Positions 33,991-62,320 of a DNA stretch of 64,000 bases are shown here, in pieces (position 1 is the stretch's first letter; every line of letters starts with the position of its first letter). A program made the translations under genes and the position numbers. Source of the stretch: Halorussus amylolyticus (GTDB lineage: Archaea > Halobacteriota > Halobacteria > Halobacteriales > Haladaptataceae); contig NZ_RXOB02000046.1 in the NCBI RefSeq assembly GCF_004143485.2, positions 1-64,000 on the forward strand, given 5' to 3'. The notes below the pieces were generated by a model that worked only from the letters and a program-made list of their open reading frames with translations, searched no databases and was not told the origin of the DNA.

Positions 33991-34302
33991 GGGTGGACGG
34001 CCGGATTGGCCCGGCGTTCCGCACCGGGGAATCCCGGTCGCGTCCTCCACCCCGCAACCCTCCGAGCGACAGGTGTCCAGTGGTCCGCTGCTCACTTCCG
34101 TGCCTGACGGATTGCCACCGGCAAACCTCGGTCGGAACGCTCCTGCGAGCGTCCGCCGAGGACCGCTGTCCCCGCAGGACGAGGCTTCGAAGTCGGCTTC
34201 CGGGGCCCGGCGCGGTCGGACCGGACGCCTCCGGGGTTCGGCCCCCGCTGAAGACCGTAGCGCGGGTGACGAGCAGGGCCTAACTGCCCGGCCTAGTCCA
34301 TC
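33991..34302 (-). ncRNA. ffs: Signal recognition particle 7S RNA
   Basis: On the minus strand about 312 nt read as an archaeal SRP RNA. The 5' part is TGGACTAGGCCGGGCAGTTA, and the helix-8 signature GTCAGGCACGGAAGTGAGCA is at 34085-34108; the terminal stem is closed by TGGAC near the 5' end with GTCCA near the 3' end. Haloarchaeal SRP RNAs are about 305-310 nt, in agreement. The ends are estimated to within a few nt. A TATA-like CCTTAAG about 24 bp upstream (34323-34329) is a reasonable promoter. The RNA scaffolds SRP19 and SRP54 for co-translational targeting. Confidence 0.93.
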
Positions 34303-34341
34303 TCGAAGTAAGGGACTTCCGACTTAAGGGCCTTTCGCTAA

Positions 34342-43373: not shown

Positions 43374-43537
43374 GAAATTTGGACCCCGGCGCGCGCTGGC
43401 GTGACGCCGTTGTTTGGCGTCACGCCCAAAGCGCGCGAGGGATGAGTGAACGACCGAAGGGAGTGAGCGAATCGGTTGGGGAGGGTGTGGCCGTCGCGGG
43501 TGCGGTTCTCATAGGTGACGTGCGAGCAGGACGCTTC
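43374..43537 (+). repeat. Dispersed element E3, left member of inverted pair
   Basis: A 17-bp tandem duplication (43352-43385, CCGGTGAAATTTGGACC twice) leads into CCCGGCGCGCGCTGG, a hairpin GCGTGACGCC/GGCGTCACGC (43399-43425), CCAAAGCGCGCGAGGGATGAG-like sequence, GGAGTGAGCGAATCGGTTGG, GTGTGGCC, AGGTGACGTG and the terminal GCGAGCAGGACGCTTC (43522-43537). The same order, in reverse complement, makes up the right member; a third copy is at 191-292. Confidence 0.85.
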
Positions 43538-43579
43538 GATGACTCAGGAACAGAATGAAGTCACGGAAGATGAACGACT

Positions 43580-43745
43580 GAAGCGTCCTGCTCGCATTCC
43601 ACAAATGAGAAACCGCAGGCCACGTCCTCCCCAACCGATTGCGGTCCTCACTTCGTTGCGGTCCTCATCCCTCGCGCGCTTTGGGCGCGACCACTTGCGG
43701 GTCGCGCCAGCACGCGCCGGGTGGATTGTTCGGCTTGGAGGCACG
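43580..43745 (-). repeat. Dispersed element E3, right member of inverted pair
   Basis: On the minus strand it carries, from 43745 inward, two AATCCACCCGGCGCGTGC-like units (31-bp period, 43710 and 43741), the stem GGCGCGACC/GGTCGCGCC (43684-43708), CCAAAGCGCGCGAGGGATGAG-like sequence, CAATCGGTTGGGGAGG, and GCGAGCAGGACGCTTC (43580-43595). Its stem differs in sequence from the left member while the framework is identical. The 42 nt between the two terminal blocks form the centre. Confidence 0.85.
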
Positions 43746-56378: not shown

Positions 56379-57203
56379 ATGTTGCGGACTGCTGGACTGA
56401 CGAAGGAGTTCGGCGGCCTCACCGCCGTCGATAGCGTAGATTTCGAACTCGAAGACGGGGAACTCTGCTCGCTCATCGGACCGAACGGCGCGGGCAAGAC
56501 GACGTTCTTCGACCTGCTGACCGGCGTCCTGACCCCCACGCGGGGAACCATCGAGATTCGGGACGACGGCGGCTGGCTCGACGTGACCGACGCCGTGCCC
56601 GACGAGACCGCGAGCCTCGGACTGCACCGGTCGTACCAGATTACGAACGTCTTCCCGACCAGCACGGTGCTGGAGAACGTCCGAGTCGCGGCTCAGGCCG
56701 CGAGCGCAGACGGCGCGAAGGTCTGGCGAAACGCCGGAGCCTTCGACGCCCACATCGAGGAGGCCCGCGCCATCCTCGACCGGGTGGGTCTCGCCGAGCA
56801 GGCCGACACCACCGCCGAGAATCTGAGCCACGGCGCGAAGCGCCAACTCGAAGTCGGTATCGCGCTCGCTGGCGACCCCGACGTGCTTCTGCTCGACGAA
56901 CCCAACGCCGGAGTTTCGTCCGAGAGCGTCGGCCGAATCATCGACCTCATCGAGGACGTGGCGACCGACCACGCGGTCCTGCTCGTGGAACACAACATGG
57001 ACATCGTGATGAACGTCTCGGACCGAATCGTGGTCCTGAATCAGGGCGCGGTCATCGCGGATGGCCCGCCAGAGGACGTTCGAGGCGACCCGACGGTGCA
57101 GGAGGCGTACCTCGGTGGCTACGAGGCCGGGAGCCTCGACGCCAAAAGCGACGAGGCCGAGACCCAAAGCACCGGGACCGACCCCGAGGAGGGTGCGGCG
57201 TGA
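56379..57203 (+). CDS. livG: Liv-type ABC ATPase (LivG)
   Basis: A 274-residue ATPase: Walker A GPNGAGKTT, signature LSHGAKRQLEVGIAL, Walker B VLLLDEPNAGVSSESV, switch His in VEHNMDIVM. The D-loop DEPNAGVS differs slightly from DEPTAGL. C-terminal acid tail (GSLDAKSDEAETQSTGTDPEEGAA). Starts 2 bp after livK stop. Its stop lies in GTGA (57200-57203), which opens the bridging frame with the RNA-like element. Confidence 0.93.
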   Translation: MLRTAGLTKEFGGLTAVDSVDFELEDGELCSLIGPNGAGKTTFFDLLTGVLTPTRGTIEIRDDGGWLDVTDAVPDETASLGLHRSYQITNVFPTSTVLENVRVAAQAASADGAKVWRNAGAFDAHIEEARAILDRVGLAEQADTTAENLSHGAKRQLEVGIALAGDPDVLLLDEPNAGVSSESVGRIIDLIEDVATDHAVLLVEHNMDIVMNVSDRIVVLNQGAVIADGPPEDVRGDPTVQEAYLGGYEAGSLDAKSDEAETQSTGTDPEEGAA

Positions 57204-57598
57204 CCGCGACCGCTTGCGGTTCGCGCTCGGTGACACAGACCACCGGGAAACTGCCGGTGACGCAATCCACCGGGAAACGGACGGTGACACAGACCACCGG
57301 GAAACGGACGGTGACACAGACCACCGAGGGTGGGACTGAAAGGGGCCGCCCGGTCGCGGGCCGCAGGCCCGTGGTCGTCTCTGCGGGCAACTATTCTCGC
57401 GCCAGGCGTTGCGGAGAGGCGCGAGAATATCCCGCAGAGCGACCGCGACCGGGCGGGGGCTTTCGAGGACTTCATCACTTCGAATGCTCACACGGTTACG
57501 ATTCGAAGCGACCGGGCGGGGGCTTTCGAGGACTCCGTTACGGAATTTTTTGTGACAGAACCAATGACGACAAACATTTCAGAGAGGTAGAGAGATGA
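57200..57598 (+). CDS. 132-codon bridging frame around RNA-like element (copy A)
   Basis: GTG at 57200 overlaps the livG stop (GTGA) and TGA at 57596-57598 overlaps the livF start (ATGA). The frame is stop-free through the repeats and the RNA-like core. Its product would be Arg/Thr-rich with almost no acidic residues (for example TGKRTVTQTT units), unlike halophile proteins. The 5-nt length difference between core copies changes the frame of the second half compared with copy B. I think translation may pass through, but the peptide itself is unlikely to be functional. Confidence 0.3.
   Translation: MTATACGSRSVTQTTGKLPVTQSTGKRTVTQTTGKRTVTQTTEGGTERGRPVAGRRPVVVSAGNYSRARRCGEAREYPAERPRPGGGFRGLHHFECSHGYDSKRPGGGFRGLRYGIFCDRTNDDKHFREVER
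57230..57329 (+). repeat. 27-bp tandem repeats before RNA-like core (copy A)
   Basis: Three full 27-bp units (57230, 57257, 57284) plus 19 nt of a fourth (57311-57329), unit GTGACACAGACCACCGGGAA plus CGGACG-type end. The core begins at once after the 19th base of the last unit. Copy B has the same phase. Confidence 0.92.
57330..57464 (+). ncRNA. Structured RNA-like element E1, copy A
   Basis: A 135-nt core that starts GTGGGACTGAAAGGGG and ends GGCGGGGGCTTTC. Stems: GAAAG/CTTTC (57338-57342, 57460-57464); a 14-bp stem 57346-57359 with 57443-57456; a short hairpin 57358-57370; 9-bp stem 57379-57387 with 57431-57439; 11-bp stem 57393-57403 with 57418-57428, loop containing GGCGTTGCGGAGA. The last two stems differ in sequence from copy B but pair in both. 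A second GGCGGGGGCTTTC lies at 57515-57527 after a hairpin 57478-57508. Located between livG and livF in the same operon; regulatory or processing role possible. No named family recognised. Confidence 0.7.
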
Positions 57599-58293
57599 CA
57601 CTACTCGAAGTCGAAGACGCCCACACGTACTACGGCGAGAGCCACATTCTCGAAGGCGTCTCGTTCGAAGTCGAGGCGGGCGAAGTCGTCGCGCTCATCG
57701 GCCGGAACGGCGTGGGGAAGACGACCACGCTCCGGACGATTCTCCAACTCACGCCGCCCCGCGAAGGTCGGGTCCGCTACCGCGGCGAGGACGTGACCGG
57801 GCGCGAGACGCACGAAATCGCCGAAAAGGGCGTCGGCTGGATTCCCGAAGGACGGCGTATCTTCTCACAGCTCTCGGTCGAGGAGAACGTCCGGGTCGCG
57901 GTCCCCGAGGGCCGAAACGTCGAGTCGGCGGTCGAACGCGCGTTCGAGACGTTCCCCGACCTCCGGGACCACCGTGACCGAGACGCTGGAAATCTCTCGG
58001 GCGGCCAACAGCAGATGCTCGCGCTCTCGCGCGGACTGGTCGGGGACAACGACCTCCTGCTGGTGGACGAACCGAGCGAGGGCCTCGCGCCGCTCATCGT
58101 GGAGCGAGTCGCCGAGGCGCTGGCGGCGGCGGCCGACGACACGACGCTCCTGCTGGTCGAGCAGAATCTCCCGCTGGCGCTCGACCTCGCTGACCGATTC
58201 TACGTGCTGGACAACGGGCAGGTCGTGGACGAAGGGAACGCCGACGAGACATCTGCGGACGACGAGCGACTCAGGAGGTATCTCTCGGCATGA
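57595..58293 (+). CDS. livF: Liv-type ABC ATPase (LivF)
   Basis: A 232-residue ATPase with GRNGVGKTTTLRTI, signature NLSGGQQQMLALSRGL, LLLVDEPSEGLAPLIVE and LLLVEQNLPLAL. The opening LLEVEDAHTYYGESHILEGVSFEV is typical of LivF. GAGGT at 57584-57588 is a good ribosome-binding site 6 nt before ATG 57595. It overlaps livH by 4 bp. The distance between livG and livF (391 bp) is unusual for this operon class and is filled by the repeated element. Confidence 0.93.
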   Translation: MTLLEVEDAHTYYGESHILEGVSFEVEAGEVVALIGRNGVGKTTTLRTILQLTPPREGRVRYRGEDVTGRETHEIAEKGVGWIPEGRRIFSQLSVEENVRVAVPEGRNVESAVERAFETFPDLRDHRDRDAGNLSGGQQQMLALSRGLVGDNDLLLVDEPSEGLAPLIVERVAEALAAAADDTTLLLVEQNLPLALDLADRFYVLDNGQVVDEGNADETSADDERLRRYLSA

Positions 58294-59300
58294 TAGAAGT
58301 CGTTCTCGCGGGCTTCCTCGGCTCGCTCGGGGAGTTCCTTCAGCCGAGCAACCTCGCGTCGGTGTTCGTGGACGGCCTCTCGAAGGCCGCGCTGTACGTG
58401 ATGATAGCCAGCGGGCTGACGCTCATCTTCGGACTGATGGGCGTGCTCAACTTCGCGCACGGCTCGATGACGATGATAGGCGCGTATCTCGGCGGCCTGC
58501 TCATGGTGCTGATGGTCGGGCAGGCGTCCGGGCCGGGCGCGCGACTGCTCGCGTTCTTCGTCGCGCTCGCGGTGACGTTCGCCGTGCTCGCGGGCATCGG
58601 TGGCGTCGTGGAGGTCGGACTCATCAGGCGTCTCTACGACCGCCCGCCGGTGTACCAGATTCTGCTCACCTTCGGGCTGACGCTCGTGTTGGACGAACTG
58701 GTGCGAATCGCCGTGCTGTTCTACGGCATGCAACCGACGAGCGACTGGCAGGCCGCGCTCGCCACCAAGCCGGGATTCCTCGACTCGTCGGTGGACCTCG
58801 GACTGGTGTCGGTGCCCGGACTCGACCTGTTCGAAATCGCGTTCGGCGCGGCCACGGTTGTCGGTCTCTGGGCGTTCCTCACCCGGACGCGCTACGGCCT
58901 GATAATCCGGGCCGGGAGCGAGGACGCCGAGATGACCGAGGCGCTCGGCATAGACGTGCGCCGGGTGTTCACCGTGGTGTTCGCGCTCGGCGCGGGCGTC
59001 GCGGGCGCGGCGGGCACCCTGCTGATGTGGGACGCCTCGTGGGCCGCGAGCGTGCCGCTCGCCGCGGACACCCTGCTCCCGGCGTTCGTGGTCGTCATCA
59101 TCGGCGGCCTCGGCACCTTCCGGGGCACCGTGGTCGCGGCGGTCATCGTCGGGATGACCGACGCGGTGATGACGTGGTGGTTCCAGAACGTCGTGGAGTT
59201 CACCGGACTCCCCGAGATGACAATCTTCCTCATCCTCGTGATAATGCTGATACTCAAACCGCAGGGACTGTTCGGCGTCGAGGAGGTGGGCGGCCATTAG
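58290..59300 (+). CDS. livH: Liv-type ABC permease (LivH)
   Basis: A 336-residue permease, about eight helices, with GLSKAALYVMIASGLTLIFGLMGVLNFAHGSMTMIGAYL (family N-terminal signature), and RAGSEDAEMTEALGIDVRRVFTVVFALGAGVAGAAG. Its start overlaps livF by 4 bp (ATGA). Its TAG stop at 59298-59300 overlaps the presumed ATT start of livM. Confidence 0.93.
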   Translation: MIEVVLAGFLGSLGEFLQPSNLASVFVDGLSKAALYVMIASGLTLIFGLMGVLNFAHGSMTMIGAYLGGLLMVLMVGQASGPGARLLAFFVALAVTFAVLAGIGGVVEVGLIRRLYDRPPVYQILLTFGLTLVLDELVRIAVLFYGMQPTSDWQAALATKPGFLDSSVDLGLVSVPGLDLFEIAFGAATVVGLWAFLTRTRYGLIIRAGSEDAEMTEALGIDVRRVFTVVFALGAGVAGAAGTLLMWDASWAASVPLAADTLLPAFVVVIIGGLGTFRGTVVAAVIVGMTDAVMTWWFQNVVEFTGLPEMTIFLILVIMLILKPQGLFGVEEVGGH

Positions 59301-60849
59301 CTCCGATAGCCCGGACGCCGATTCGGCCGACGCCGAATCGGCCGACGCGGATTCGACTGACGCCGACCGAACCGACGAACAAGCGACCGACGGCGGAACG
59401 GCCGACGGTGGAGCGACCGAAACCGACCCGAACACCGCCGCATCGACCGAAACCGACCCGAACACCGCCGCATCGACCGAAACCGACCCGAACACCGCCG
59501 CATCGACCGAAACCGACCCGAACACCGCCGCATCGACCGAAACCGACCCGACCGACGAGACGCAGACCGAAATCGACGAGCGCGACTTCGACCCGGGAAC
59601 CGCGACCTCGTGGCCGGTCCGGTACCTCCGCGACCATCTGGCTCACGTCGCGGTCATCGCCTTCTTCGCGGCGTACCCCGGCATCTACTCGGTGCTTCTG
59701 GGGTCGCCGCTCGGCGCGGAGATGGAGACGCTCCTGCCGAGAGTCGAGACGATGGTCGTGGTGTTCTACTTCGGCCTGTTCGCCATGTCGTTCGACTTCA
59801 TCTCGGGCTACACGGGCTACCTATCCTTCGGCCACGCCGCATTCTACGGCGCTGGCGCGTACTTCGTCGTCCTCGCGTCGAACGGCAAAGTGCCCGCGCT
59901 CGGCCCGAACACGTCGTTCGTCGCGCTGCTCGTGCTGGCGGGACTCGTCGCTGTCGTCCTCGCGCTCCTCATCGGTGCGGTGTCGTTCCGCCTGTCGGGC
60001 GTCTACTTCGCGATGATTACGCTCGGCTTCTCACAGGTGTTGTACGTGTTCGTGCGCGACTGGGACTTCGTGGGGTCGAACCCCCGCGACGGTCCGGCGG
60101 TGCTCGAACGCACCGACCCGTTCAGCATCGGCGTGCCGGGCGTCGATTCGCTCAACCTCGCCATCGGCCAGCTCGCGGGCGACAGCGTCGAGGGCTTCCT
60201 CGGCGTCCTCAACTTCAGCACAGCCGAGGTGTCGTACTACATGGTGGGTCTCGTGGTGCTGGTCTGCTACTTCGTCATGCAGCGCATCATCCACTCACCG
60301 TTCGGTCGCGTGCTAATCGCCATCCGCGAGAACGAAGAGCGCGCCGAGGCGGTCGGGTACAACACCTTCTGGTACAAACTCGGCGCGTTCGCGGTCAGCG
60401 CGTTCTTCGCCGCAATCGCTGGCGGCCTGTTCGCGGGGTTCCAGCGGTCGGTGTCGCCCGAGGAGACATTCTACTTCCTCGTGACCGGTGACGCCCTGCT
60501 CGCGTCCATCATCGGTGGGTTCGCCACGCTCGCGGGACCGCTGTACGGCTGGCTGTTCGACGAGACTATCACCGAGTTCCTCTCGAAGCGCGGCGAGGGC
60601 GGCGGCCTGCTCCCGTACCTCCGGGACCACCTCGGCGAGGGGACGCTCTCGATAGAGATATTCAACGGCCTGACGGTCCAGGAGGCCATCGACACGTTCC
60701 TGAACGGCCACGCCGAACTCTACATCGGCGTGCTGTTCGTCCTGTTCGTCCTGTTCGTGCCGAACGGCCTGCTCGGGACGGTCCGAGACAGGGTCGGCGG
60801 CCCCATCGGCAAGGCCGTGGCCGACCGAATCTGGGGTGAGAACCGATGA
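59296..60849 (+). CDS. livM: Liv-type ABC permease (LivM) with acidic repeat N terminus and ATT start
   Basis: A 517-residue protein: acidic N-terminal extension of about 105 residues (SSDSPDADSADAES..., then ETDPNTAAST repeated four times), then the LivM permease with SWPVRYLRDHLAHVAVIAFFAAYPGIYSVLLGS (TM1) and SFDFISGYTGYLSFGHAAFYGAGAYF. No ATG, GTG or TTG is in frame before TM1; the first GTG (59692) would remove TM1. The only start that keeps the operon spacing is ATT at 59296, overlapping livH in the place where ATGA would be. Typical LivM has no such leader. Overlaps the next frame by ATGA at 60846. Confidence 0.8.
   Translation: MSSDSPDADSADAESADADSTDADRTDEQATDGGTADGGATETDPNTAASTETDPNTAASTETDPNTAASTETDPNTAASTETDPTDETQTEIDERDFDPGTATSWPVRYLRDHLAHVAVIAFFAAYPGIYSVLLGSPLGAEMETLLPRVETMVVVFYFGLFAMSFDFISGYTGYLSFGHAAFYGAGAYFVVLASNGKVPALGPNTSFVALLVLAGLVAVVLALLIGAVSFRLSGVYFAMITLGFSQVLYVFVRDWDFVGSNPRDGPAVLERTDPFSIGVPGVDSLNLAIGQLAGDSVEGFLGVLNFSTAEVSYYMVGLVVLVCYFVMQRIIHSPFGRVLIAIRENEERAEAVGYNTFWYKLGAFAVSAFFAAIAGGLFAGFQRSVSPEETFYFLVTGDALLASIIGGFATLAGPLYGWLFDETITEFLSKRGEGGGLLPYLRDHLGEGTLSIEIFNGLTVQEAIDTFLNGHAELYIGVLFVLFVLFVPNGLLGTVRDRVGGPIGKAVADRIWGENR
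59413..59550 (+). repeat. 30-bp coding tandem repeat in livM
   Basis: Four full 30-bp units from 59413 plus a partial fifth (to 59550). Each unit codes for TETDPNTAA plus Ser or Ala. The near-identity at DNA level (units 2-4 are identical) indicates recent expansion by slippage or unequal exchange. Confidence 0.95.
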
Positions 60850-61244
60850 GCGACGAGAATCGAATCAGAGAATCCGTCGCTCGGCTGAGGCACCGGACCC
60901 CAAGCTCGGTGAGACAATCCACTAGGAAACAACGGGCTGACCAATCCACCACGAACCCACGGGTGAGACAAACTACATCGGGTGGGACTGAAAGGGGCCG
61001 CCCGGTCGCGGGCCGCAGGCCCGTGGTCGCTTGCGCGGCCACTATCTGGACCGGGCGGTGCGGAGAGGTCCAGATATGTCGCGCAACGACCGCGACCGGG
61101 CGGGGGCTTTCTACGTCTCGTTCACTCCGTATACCTCAATTCGAATCGGGCGGGGGCTTTCTGGCTGTTCCTGATTTCGTTAGTCGAAACGTAGGGCTAT
61201 CGAAACACCATCTTCGGCCACTCCCCAAACGGAGGAAAACGTGA
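60846..61244 (+). CDS. 132-codon bridging frame around RNA-like element (copy B)
   Basis: ATG 60846 overlaps the livM stop (ATGA) and TGA at 61242-61244 overlaps the GTG of the ketosynthase gene (GTGA). It begins MSDENRIRESVARLRHRT, then the same GGTERGRPVAGRRPVV as copy A, and diverges after the variable stems. The same total of 132 codons as copy A is remarkable, but the C-terminal halves are unrelated in frame. Basic composition argues against a stable protein. Confidence 0.3.
   Translation: MSDENRIRESVARLRHRTPSSVRQSTRKQRADQSTTNPRVRQTTSGGTERGRPVAGRRPVVACAATIWTGRCGEVQICRATTATGRGLSTSRSLRIPQFESGGGFLAVPDFVSRNVGLSKHHLRPLPKRRKT
60909..60981 (+). repeat. 27-bp tandem repeats before RNA-like core (copy B)
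   Basis: Two diverged 27-bp units (60909, 60936; GTGAGACAATCCACTAGG and GCTGACCAATCCACCACG starts) and 19 nt of a third (60963-60981). The core follows at the same position of the unit as in copy A. Confidence 0.82.
60982..61111 (+). ncRNA. Structured RNA-like element E1, copy B
   Basis: A 130-nt core. Its first 47 nt and last 26 nt match copy A; the middle differs. Stems: 60990-60994 with 61107-61111; 60998-61011 with 61090-61103; 61031-61039 with 61078-61086 (one G-U pair); 61044-61052 with 61067-61075, loop containing GGCGGTGCGGAGA. The two inner stems have different sequences from copy A yet stay paired. A second CGGGCGGGGGCTTTC is at 61147-61161. It lies between livM and the ketosynthase gene. 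GGAGG at 61231-61235 is a ribosome-binding site for the next gene. Confidence 0.7.
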
Positions 61245-62320
61245 CTGAGACGAACACGCCAGAAGTCGGTCTCACTGGCTTCGGGACCTACGTGCCCGAC
61301 GAAATCGTCACCGGCGAGGAAATCGCCGCGGAAAGCGGGATTCCCGAGGAGGTCGTCGTGGAGAAGATGGGCGTGCGCGAGAAACGAGTCTGCTCTGCCG
61401 ACGCAGACCACGCGACCGACATGTGCGTGAAAGCCGCGAGAAAGGCGCTCTCGGACGCCGACCGCGACCCCGAGGACGTGGACCTCGTGCTGTACCACGG
61501 GTCGGAGTACAAGGACTTCGTCGTCTGGAGCGCCGCGGCCAACGTCGCCGAGCGAATCGGTGCCGACGACGCCTTCGCGGTCGAGAGCTACGCGCTGTGT
61601 GCGGGCGCGCCGCTCGCCATCCGGCAGGCCAAATCCCAACTGCTCGCCGACGCGCCCGAGACGGCGCTGCTCGTCTCGGCGAGCAGGGAGGAAGACCTCG
61701 TAGACTACGGAAACGAAGACTCGTCGTTCATGTTCAACTTCGGGAGCGGCGCGTGCGCGATGGTCTTAGAAAGCGTTGGGTCTCGCCCAACGGAAAATCC
61801 GAGCGGGCAAGGCCCGCGAGGGGCCGACCCCGCGGACGGTCGCACGCGTGCGACCGTCCGCGAGAGCGCCGCGGTGACGGACGGGAGTTTCTCGGAGGAC
61901 GTGGTAATGGCCGCGGGCGGGTCCCGAAACCCCGCCAGCCACGCGACGGTCGAGGCGGGACTCCACGCGCTCGACGTGCCCGACCCCGAGGGGATGAAGG
62001 AGCGACTCGCGGACGTGAGCCTCCCGAACTTCCTCGACGTGGCCGACGACGCGTTGGCGCGGTCGGGGTACGACCGCGCCGACCTCGACTTCGTGGCGCT
62101 GACCCACATGAAGCGGTCGTTTCACGACCTGCTGACCGACGAACTCGACGCAGAGAGCTACTACCTCGACGAGTACGGCCACGTCCAGAGCGTGGACCAG
62201 ATTCTCGCGCTGGAGGAAGGTCTCGACCGCGGACTGGTCGAGTCGGGCGACGTGCTCTGCTTCCTCGCGGCCGGGACCGGCTACACGTGGGCCGCGACCG
62301 TGCTGGAGTGGCGCGGGTAG
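61241..62320 (+). CDS. 3-oxoacyl-ACP synthase III/thiolase-fold enzyme
   Basis: A 359-residue KAS III-like protein. Active-site Cys120 in ESYALCAGAPLAIRQ; His in ALTHMKRSFHDLL; a further DEYGHVQSVDQILALEEGL; the C-terminal CFLAAGTGYTWAATVLEW replaces the usual Asn motif. Starts with GTG 61241 after GGAGG. Residues about 178-210 (SVGSRPTENPSGQGPRGADP...) are encoded by three palindromes and interrupt the fold between FGSGACAMVLE and AAVTDGSFSED. KAS III enzymes form C-C bonds between acyl-CoA and malonyl or acetyl groups. With SDR and Liv-type uptake it suggests a carboxylate pathway, inferred only. Confidence 0.85.
   Translation: MTETNTPEVGLTGFGTYVPDEIVTGEEIAAESGIPEEVVVEKMGVREKRVCSADADHATDMCVKAARKALSDADRDPEDVDLVLYHGSEYKDFVVWSAAANVAERIGADDAFAVESYALCAGAPLAIRQAKSQLLADAPETALLVSASREEDLVDYGNEDSSFMFNFGSGACAMVLESVGSRPTENPSGQGPRGADPADGRTRATVRESAAVTDGSFSEDVVMAAGGSRNPASHATVEAGLHALDVPDPEGMKERLADVSLPNFLDVADDALARSGYDRADLDFVALTHMKRSFHDLLTDELDAESYYLDEYGHVQSVDQILALEEGLDRGLVESGDVLCFLAAGTGYTWAATVLEWRG
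61774..61862. repeat. Cluster of palindromes inside the KAS III-like gene
   Basis: CGTTGGG/CCCAACG (61774-61792), GCGGGC/GCCCGC (61803-61817), and a 32-bp perfect palindrome 61831-61862 (arms of 16 bp, CGCGGACGGTCGCACG). The whole piece is in frame, stop-free and adds about 33 residues. Confidence 0.92.

Follow-up and report, generated by a model that had tools for sequence, protein, structure and literature searches.

A probable family of small interspersed structured repeats in haloarchaea

Bacteria have familiar dispersed, intergenic elements, ERIC and Correia/NEMIS, that are imperfect palindromes of roughly 100-200 bp and often lie near genes, and the eukaryotic Alu/B1 SINEs derive from a structured RNA gene and occur as many geneless dispersed copies. 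We know of no sequence kinship between ERIC, Correia/NEMIS or BOX/RUP and the family described here, which is haloarchaeal, has extensive covariation and, unlike those bacterial elements, includes in Haloarcula an ancestral-looking putative RNA gene with the core. Its likeness to SINEs is one of layout: one lineage has a structured RNA gene, others have geneless dispersed copies. BOX/RUP (PMC3049150) resemble it as dispersed intergenic imperfect palindromes of ~100-200 bp, often near genes, BOX being modular.

SMR-A and the other short mobile repeats of Haloquadratum walsbyi, whose mobilisation has been called enigmatic, offer a haloarchaeal comparison; SMR-A shows strain-specific insertions without target duplication (PMC3119063). 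Set beside our family by description, SMR-A is likewise haloarchaeal, about 110-130 bp long, bounded by a terminal inverted repeat, present in tens of copies per genome, geneless and without a known transposon relative (PMC3119063), but its copies are commonly >95% identical, whereas those of the present family are ~25% divergent (mean within-genome identity ~0.73) with the fold kept. The complex fold with conserved internal loops, the 5' and 3' unit arrays and the promoter-facing orientation of the present family are not described for SMR-A (PMC3119063). PATE/IS605-type ends (PMC3119063) and REP/REPIN with RAYT (PMC3116915, PMC2817692) are alike in their imperfect palindromes, intergenic position, strand asymmetry and lack of coding capacity; they differ in that a Y1 partner is missing from the Halorussus amylolyticus genome. 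Archaeal TnpB omega-RNA (PMC12558985) is also a structured ncRNA of haloarchaea with ties to mobile DNA, but the present family has no link to TnpB genes or ends.

Two copies and their fold

The window, the whole 64,000-nucleotide stretch of Halorussus amylolyticus DNA that was analysed, holds two copies, A and B. Direct reading confirmed the places and common ends reported in the initial annotation, which had the cores right and missed an array of hairpin units upstream and a repeat of the outer stem's 3' strand downstream. The parts and neighbours are:

56379-57203, + strand: branched-chain amino acid ABC transporter ATPase (LivG-like), 5' of copy A (Pfam PF00005, PF12399)
57225-57329, + strand: copy A 5' array, about four units of ~26 nt, GCTCGGTGACACAG-ACCACCGGGAAAC.., that can each fold into a small CCGGTG..CACCGG hairpin (read directly)
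57330-57464, + strand: copy A core (fold, 33-copy alignment, covariation, covariance-model score 129.1 bits)
57338-57342/57460-57464, + strand: copy A GAAAG/CTTTC helix (fold)
57346-57357/57445-57456, + strand: copy A outer stem, 12-13 bp (fold)
57358-57362/57366-57370, + strand: copy A side hairpin (fold)
57373-57387/57431-57444 and 57392-57403/57418-57429, + strand: copy A inner stems (fold)
57404-57417, + strand: copy A apical loop (fold)
57508-57527, + strand: copy A 3' unit, the outer stem's 3' strand repeated, GCGACCGGGCGGGGGCTTTC (read directly)
57595-58293, + strand: ABC transporter ATPase (LivF-like), 3' of copy A (Pfam PF00005)
59692-60849, + strand: branched-chain amino acid permease (LivM-like), 5' of copy B (Pfam PF02653)
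60904-60981, + strand: copy B 5' array of degenerate units, GCTCGGTGAGACAATCCAC type (read directly)
60982-61111, + strand: copy B core (fold, covariance-model score 131.1 bits)
61147-61161, + strand: copy B outer stem's 3' strand repeated downstream, CGGGCGGGGGCTTTC (read directly)
61241-62320, + strand: 3-oxoacyl-ACP synthase III-like, 3' of copy B (Pfam PF08541, PF08545)

Arrays like that of copy A, with a variable number of units, stand 5' of many other copies, and tandem, locus-specific 3' units of ~54 nt accompany other copies. The sequence GTGGGACTGAAAG resembles a CRISPR repeat in look.

The core, ~127 nt long (120-139 nt), forms four stacked helices on one strand, with GAAAG..CTTTC termini and a 12-13 bp stem. 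An asymmetric internal loop (CTAT/ATAT side) and facing G-tracts are conserved, as is the apical loop within Halorussus, and an unpaired T sits in the stem. The predicted folds reach -91.3 kcal/mol for copy A (z -7.1) and -85.2 kcal/mol for copy B (z -5.6), with 0 of 200 shuffles equally stable in either case. Both copies fold as the initial annotation proposed, and for copy A the prediction contains its stems 57379-57387/57431-57439 and 57392-57403/57418-57429; the outermost parts it had overlooked.

Across 33 copies, 98.7% of cells are paired and double-sided compensatory changes affect 20 of the 39 pairs. Double-sided cells number 136, where shuffling predicts 39 and slid controls give 7-20; no shuffle came as high. 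Covariation far above both kinds of control supports the proposal, first made from two copies, that a folded single strand is under selection. G-T wobbles outnumber A-C mismatches 63 to 15, a ratio to be read with caution because the alignments were fitted to the covariance model; it fits reading of one strand, as RNA or ssDNA, and the excess trends likewise in a MAFFT alignment (A1). Since the fold is kept while its letters change, something in the cell, to judge from these alignments, reads the fold.

Compensatory changes could also arise with no structural selection, by template switching within palindromes at replication combined with gene conversion. Palindromes are indeed prone to such template-switch correction, and concerted evolution is evident here, but unpaired core positions are invariant too in the 33-copy alignment and the internal loop is retained in several families. 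Nor does this account, which we consider very unlikely, predict the wobble asymmetry, though strand-biased cytosine deamination could add G-T, or the contrast between core and flanks at the liv site described below.

Distribution, placement and turnover

The initial annotation proposed searching haloarchaeal genomes with a covariance model; one built from 33 copies of the own genome recovered a dispersed family. Halorussus amylolyticus has 92 matches at E<=0.001, ~70 of them strong, so the two copies first noted were correctly placed but gravely undercounted, and homologues are far from few: 18 Halorussus species have 0-148 copies per genome, and 141 of 293 sampled Halobacteriales genomes have matches, the weak ones being unreliable. 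Weak order-level matches (E around 1e-4) were left out of the evidence, and non-archaeal matches of a loose sequence pattern were taken as chance. No Rfam 15 family matches the copies at gathering score, so that a known RNA family was rejected as their identity, and this agrees with the earlier remark that no named family has this layout; absent from Rfam and from the literature searched, the family is without an earlier name. A viral or plasmid carrier was rejected, with 0 matches among 50,697 phage records, 0 in IMG/VR (exact pattern) and just four plasmids, all haloarchaeal, carrying the core.

Every copy with a callable context is intergenic. Among 149 copies, tandem gene pairs hold 61 in sense and 18 in antisense, divergent pairs 54 and convergent pairs 16; in H. 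salilacus, replication-strand bias of copies was not evident. The distance from the upstream gene's stop codon is about 99 nt, the 3' end usually faces the next gene's promoter, and between the element and the start codon of the downstream gene, at -20 to -39, there is an AT peak with TATA-like runs. Because the copies stand 5' of the next gene's own TATA box and the genes are unrelated, a leader riboswitch was rejected; judged by eye, the downstream proteins of 40 copies have no common theme. The operon framing of the initial annotation falls away with this, the family being genome-wide and the element lying 5' of the next gene's promoter, outside its leader.

A role as a host RNA domain, transcribed either as the 3' tail of the upstream gene's mRNA where the pair is tandem or as an RNA of its own, would make each copy a processing, stability or insulation element serving adjacent genes. 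We regard this as possible but rather unlikely: the sense excess in tandem pairs (61:18), the position between upstream stop codon and next promoter, an orthologous site strongly conserved with compensatory change in 11 species, and a core that ends a ~345-nt TATA-driven putative ncRNA in Haloarcula and Halomicroarcula all favour it, yet 54 of the 149 copies sit between divergent promoters where none evidently transcribes them in the sense direction, neighbour genes are unrelated, and congeners vary from 0 to 148 in copy number.

That orthologous site is livG-livF, where copy A lies and where 15 of 16 Halorussus species carry a copy; the copy B site and three others (sites 1-3) are filled in only some. 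At livG-livF the core is conserved like coding DNA while the flanks degrade, and within this single site 10 pairs show compensatory changes. The own genome and H. salilacus have two-flank sites in common for 14 of 69 own copies, always in equal orientation, with a core identity of 0.76 against 0.73 for random pairs and with different predominant outer stems (CCGGTCGCG vs CCGCTCGCG). Near-random identity and differing stems point to copying or conversion; core sequence at the common sites is apparently shuffled among paralogues. These comparisons show that copies come and go within the lifetime of one genus and are homogenised within a genome. No clean-bordered insertion or target duplication was seen with one genome per species, borders being blurred because the genomes compared are of different species. 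The nearest relative by livG DNA, congener G008, wholly lacks the family, having lost all copies; another congener, G006, has almost none.

What may read the fold

We think it probable that A and B belong to a family of small interspersed structured repeats in haloarchaea, spread or copied in trans by machinery that reads the folded strand. The element, with no gene of its own, would spread or be copied between sites through machinery encoded elsewhere, which would recognise the folded strand as an RNA transcript or as single-stranded DNA. The fold would be maintained by selection for recognition, possibly together with a local host role upstream of promoters, and once the machinery was lost the copies would decay or be deleted, which may be what happened in G008. 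Against spread in trans, no partner gene was found (Y1 transposase and TnpB were examined), and vertical persistence at livG-livF with the fold kept could equally mean host function; against element-specific machinery, ordinary gene conversion, in an archaeon prone to recombination, could account for the homogenisation.

Were the family an IS200/IS605-PATE-REPIN-type ssDNA hairpin element, its folded top strand would be recognised by a Y1 (HUH) transposase. The strand-specific fold, the unpaired T in the stem, the lack of coding capacity and the high copy number suit this, and PATEs of such a kind are known in Haloquadratum (PMC3119063), but we find it improbable and rejected Y1/IS200 as a partner: PF01797 has 0 matches in the own genome and in congeners G002, G003, G004, G007 and G010 (30-100 copies each, G002 having 100), and Y1 loci lack the core.

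A TnpB guide-RNA-like origin, in which the copies would be omega-RNA relics kept by nuclease-driven homing, is exceedingly doubtful. A putative structured RNA is followed by unique sequence and TnpB genes are present, as such an origin would have it, but the 3' ends of TnpB lack the core and TnpB flanks match the model nowhere except at independent nearby copies. TnpB gene numbers do not track copy number, G008 having 7 TnpB genes and 0 copies, and this partner too was rejected. In the tests run here the copies did not prove to be a known transposon end, an outcome that the initial annotation had allowed for.

In Haloarcula and Halomicroarcula the core forms the 3' part of a conserved ~345-nt putative ncRNA gene, with a conserved TATA box upstream in Haloarcula, and this TATA-driven gene tilts the choice of read form, RNA or single-stranded DNA, towards RNA. 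In Haloarcula an OB-fold, RPA-like protein gene flanks it. As a partner this protein was rejected: homologues in Halorussus are present irrespective of copy number, including in copyless G008, and no core was found beside their genes at 12 loci examined. One own copy, C8:108857-108978, adjoins an OB-fold/RPA-like gene, probably by chance.

A fuller SINE-like scheme would start from the conserved, TATA-driven RNA gene of Haloarcula/Halomicroarcula (5' domain plus core, ~345 nt) as master or ancestor. Its 3' domain would have been copied through RNA into ~100 sites between genes per Halorussus or Halosimplex genome, with a 5' module or hairpin array swapped in for the original 5' domain, and the fold would persist because it is read by the copying machinery or by a protein partner. 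As a whole this scheme seems to us unlikely.

Although haloarchaea serve as standard models among the archaea, this family, with as many as ~150 matches per genome and a strongly constrained structure, had gone unnamed in them. If mobile, it would be to archaea what ERIC and BOX are to bacteria or SINEs to eukaryotes, and comparison of the 18 congeneric genomes, which range from 0 to 148 copies, should allow its mover to be found; as a host RNA domain it would be a new class of transcript element. The loss of all copies in G008 is a natural experiment that makes both the mobile and the host readings testable.

Fold of the core and size of the family

The initial annotation had described two copies of a structured element, and we found both in place:

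57330-57464, forward strand: core of copy A
60982-61111, forward strand: core of copy B

Their claimed folding beats shuffled sequence widely (z -7.1 for A and -5.6 for B), and the two inner stems described for them are present in the full fold of the core, a predicted four-helix stack.

Parts of the predicted core fold in copies A and B
Closing helix: GAAAG/CTTTC
Internal loop: GGG/GGG
Outer stem: 12-13 bp
Side hairpin: small
Two inner stems: asymmetric loop between them, CTAT/ATAT side
Apical loop

An array of ~26-nt hairpin units lies 5' of each of these two cores, and the 3' strand of the outer stem is repeated once more downstream. Many copies (for example loci L010 and L020) have locus-specific tandem units of ~54 nt on their 3' side, each terminating in a fresh copy of that 3' strand, so that the 5' strand of the outer stem could pair with any of several partners.

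A DNA search with copy A matched 41 places in the H. amylolyticus genome, and 33 of these were used to build a covariance model, R1, whose E-values are rough. A search of haloarchaeal genomes with such a model, as the initial annotation had suggested, revealed a dispersed family: R1 has 92 matches in the own genome at E<=0.001, some of them perhaps duplicated in the assembly (the two copies on contig C7 recur on C16), and at least one match, many of them weak, in 141 of 293 genomes of the order. Strong matches fall under names including Halosimplex, Haloarcula, Halomicroarcula, Haloparvum, Halovenus, Halohasta and Halorubrum. Among 18 Halorussus congeners (H. salilacus, H. aquaticus, H. ruber and H. 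salinisoli are among the relatives compared), copies per genome run from 0, 1, 6 and 10 up to 103 and 148; genome G008, which also serves as the negative control for R1, has zero matches across 3.8 Mb of similar DNA.

Compensatory change in the core

In a MAFFT alignment of the 33 copies, 98.7% of cells form pairs and 20 of the 39 pairs have changes on both sides. Double-change cells number 136, against 39 expected on shuffling (no shuffle reaches 136) and 7-20 with slid partners, which bears out the selected structure claimed from copies A and B. Invariance extends to many unpaired positions of the core as well. G-T wobbles outnumber A-C mismatches by 63 to 15 among 154 aligned copies, in an alignment fitted to R1; this excess is repeated in the MAFFT alignment, indicating that one strand is read, and strand-biased deamination could contribute to it.

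At the livG-livF site, that of copy A, an independent alignment of 11 species has double changes in 10 pairs and a compensated change within the otherwise invariant GAAAG/CTTTC helix; conservation of the core there is about that of coding DNA, and the flanks are less conserved. The core fold is under selection, on one strand.

Placement and turnover of copies

The placement of the element is intergenic and promoter-facing. With gene calls from a simple codon-usage script, no copy with callable context lay inside a predicted gene (151 copies, two genomes). In the same genomes, copies in tandem gene pairs are sense in 61 cases and antisense in 18, and 54 lie between divergent genes versus 16 between convergent ones; the 3' end of the element therefore usually faces a gene start. 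The AT-rich promoter signal of the downstream gene, 20-39 nt before the start codon, sits between element and gene, which rules out a place for the element in that gene's leader; in tandem pairs, the stretch from the upstream gene to the element has scarcely any promoter-like signal.

We found no theme among neighbouring genes. By family-search annotation, copy A is flanked by LivG-like and LivF-like ATPase genes, and copy B by LivM-like permease and ketoacyl-ACP synthase III-like genes. An acidic in-frame stretch with near-identical tandem repeats (ACCGAAACCGACCCGAACACCGCCGCATCG..) upstream of the permease start (59301-59560) is probably an unusual N-terminal extension of that protein. An ordinary archaeal SRP RNA gene (Rfam RF01857) lies at 33991-34303, reverse strand.

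Sites are gained and lost. The copy A site is filled, in constant orientation, in 15 of the 16 Halorussus species having the locus, and is shrunken or altered in three of those; the single empty site belongs to G008, the nearest species by livG DNA. Its lack of copies anywhere, together with short intergenic gaps at sites 2, 3 and livG-livF, suggests that it lost the family wholesale. Other sites are common to few species. Both flanking genes are shared with H. salilacus for 14 of 69 copies, always in equal orientation, with one genome sampled per species and insertion borders that are not clean.

Copies are homogenised within genomes. A core is often no nearer its shared-site counterpart in H. 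salilacus than random copies are (0.76 versus 0.73), and each of the two genomes has its own predominant outer-stem allele; copies thus appear to be overwritten by others of the same genome, in concerted evolution.

Associated modules and candidate partners

A second structured module (GGCGCGCGCTG-hairpin-CGCGCGAGGGATGAG-...-CGGTTGGGGAGG), itself with covarying helices, precedes the core in Halosimplex and in part of Halorussus; its order and strand relative to the core are constant over 42 composite copies. A palindrome of ~330 bp at 43385-43720 consists of two inverted second modules (GGCGCGCGCTGGCG..GAGGGATGAG..CGGTTGGGGAGG) centred on a 16-bp inverted repeat, GCGAGCAGGACGCTTC. Large inverted structures also occur in some genera (L221, L234 and L245; genomes G211 and G144), where cores are paired either back to back or face to face at a spacing of 30-550 nt and the second module lies between or outside them. 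Several cores hold a palindromic insert of ~52 nt (GGTCACGCGAGCGAAGCGAGTGTGACCTCGGAAGACGCGGTTTGTCTTCCGG) that breaks the hairpin at the side-hairpin or outer-stem position (own contigs C5:150082, C1:773804, C11:20586, C14:39413 and C6:55344; L063 in H. aquaticus), recalling the SMR elements that invade palindromes in Haloquadratum (PMC3119063).

A strongly conserved region of Haloarcula and Halomicroarcula has the core as its 3' part. It starts at a TATA box ~265 nt upstream of the core, has a near-invariant 5' domain (GTGCCGGATGGGTGAAAGCCCGGCAGCGCAACG..) and looks like an RNA gene of ~345 nt (L258, L292, L301, L320, L298; in Haloarcula L220, L223, L225-L227, L235); no Rfam family matches it. 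This putative gene is divergent from one encoding an RPA-like OB-fold protein whose C-terminus bears a zinc-finger-like motif. Sequence evidence points indirectly to RNA as the functional form, at least in these two genera. For the family as a whole, we somewhat favour spread or copying in trans by machinery that would read the fold, beside which a local host role would be optional. That the core is a host RNA domain, retained for its own sake, seems to us rather unlikely. Tested or weaker alternatives share the remaining probability.

Among candidate partners, Y1 transposase (PF01797) is absent from the own genome and several high-copy congeners. TnpB was rejected, its genes being few, independent of copy number in their counts and without a core at their ends, as was the OB-fold protein, whose Halorussus homologues occur whatever the copy number; phage searches found no carrier.

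The element belongs to a class already known from prokaryotes, that of small interspersed palindromic repeats; so far as our tools and open-access papers reach, there is no earlier description of this repeat family, of how deep its compensatory evolution runs, of the swapping of its modules or of the RNA-gene relative.
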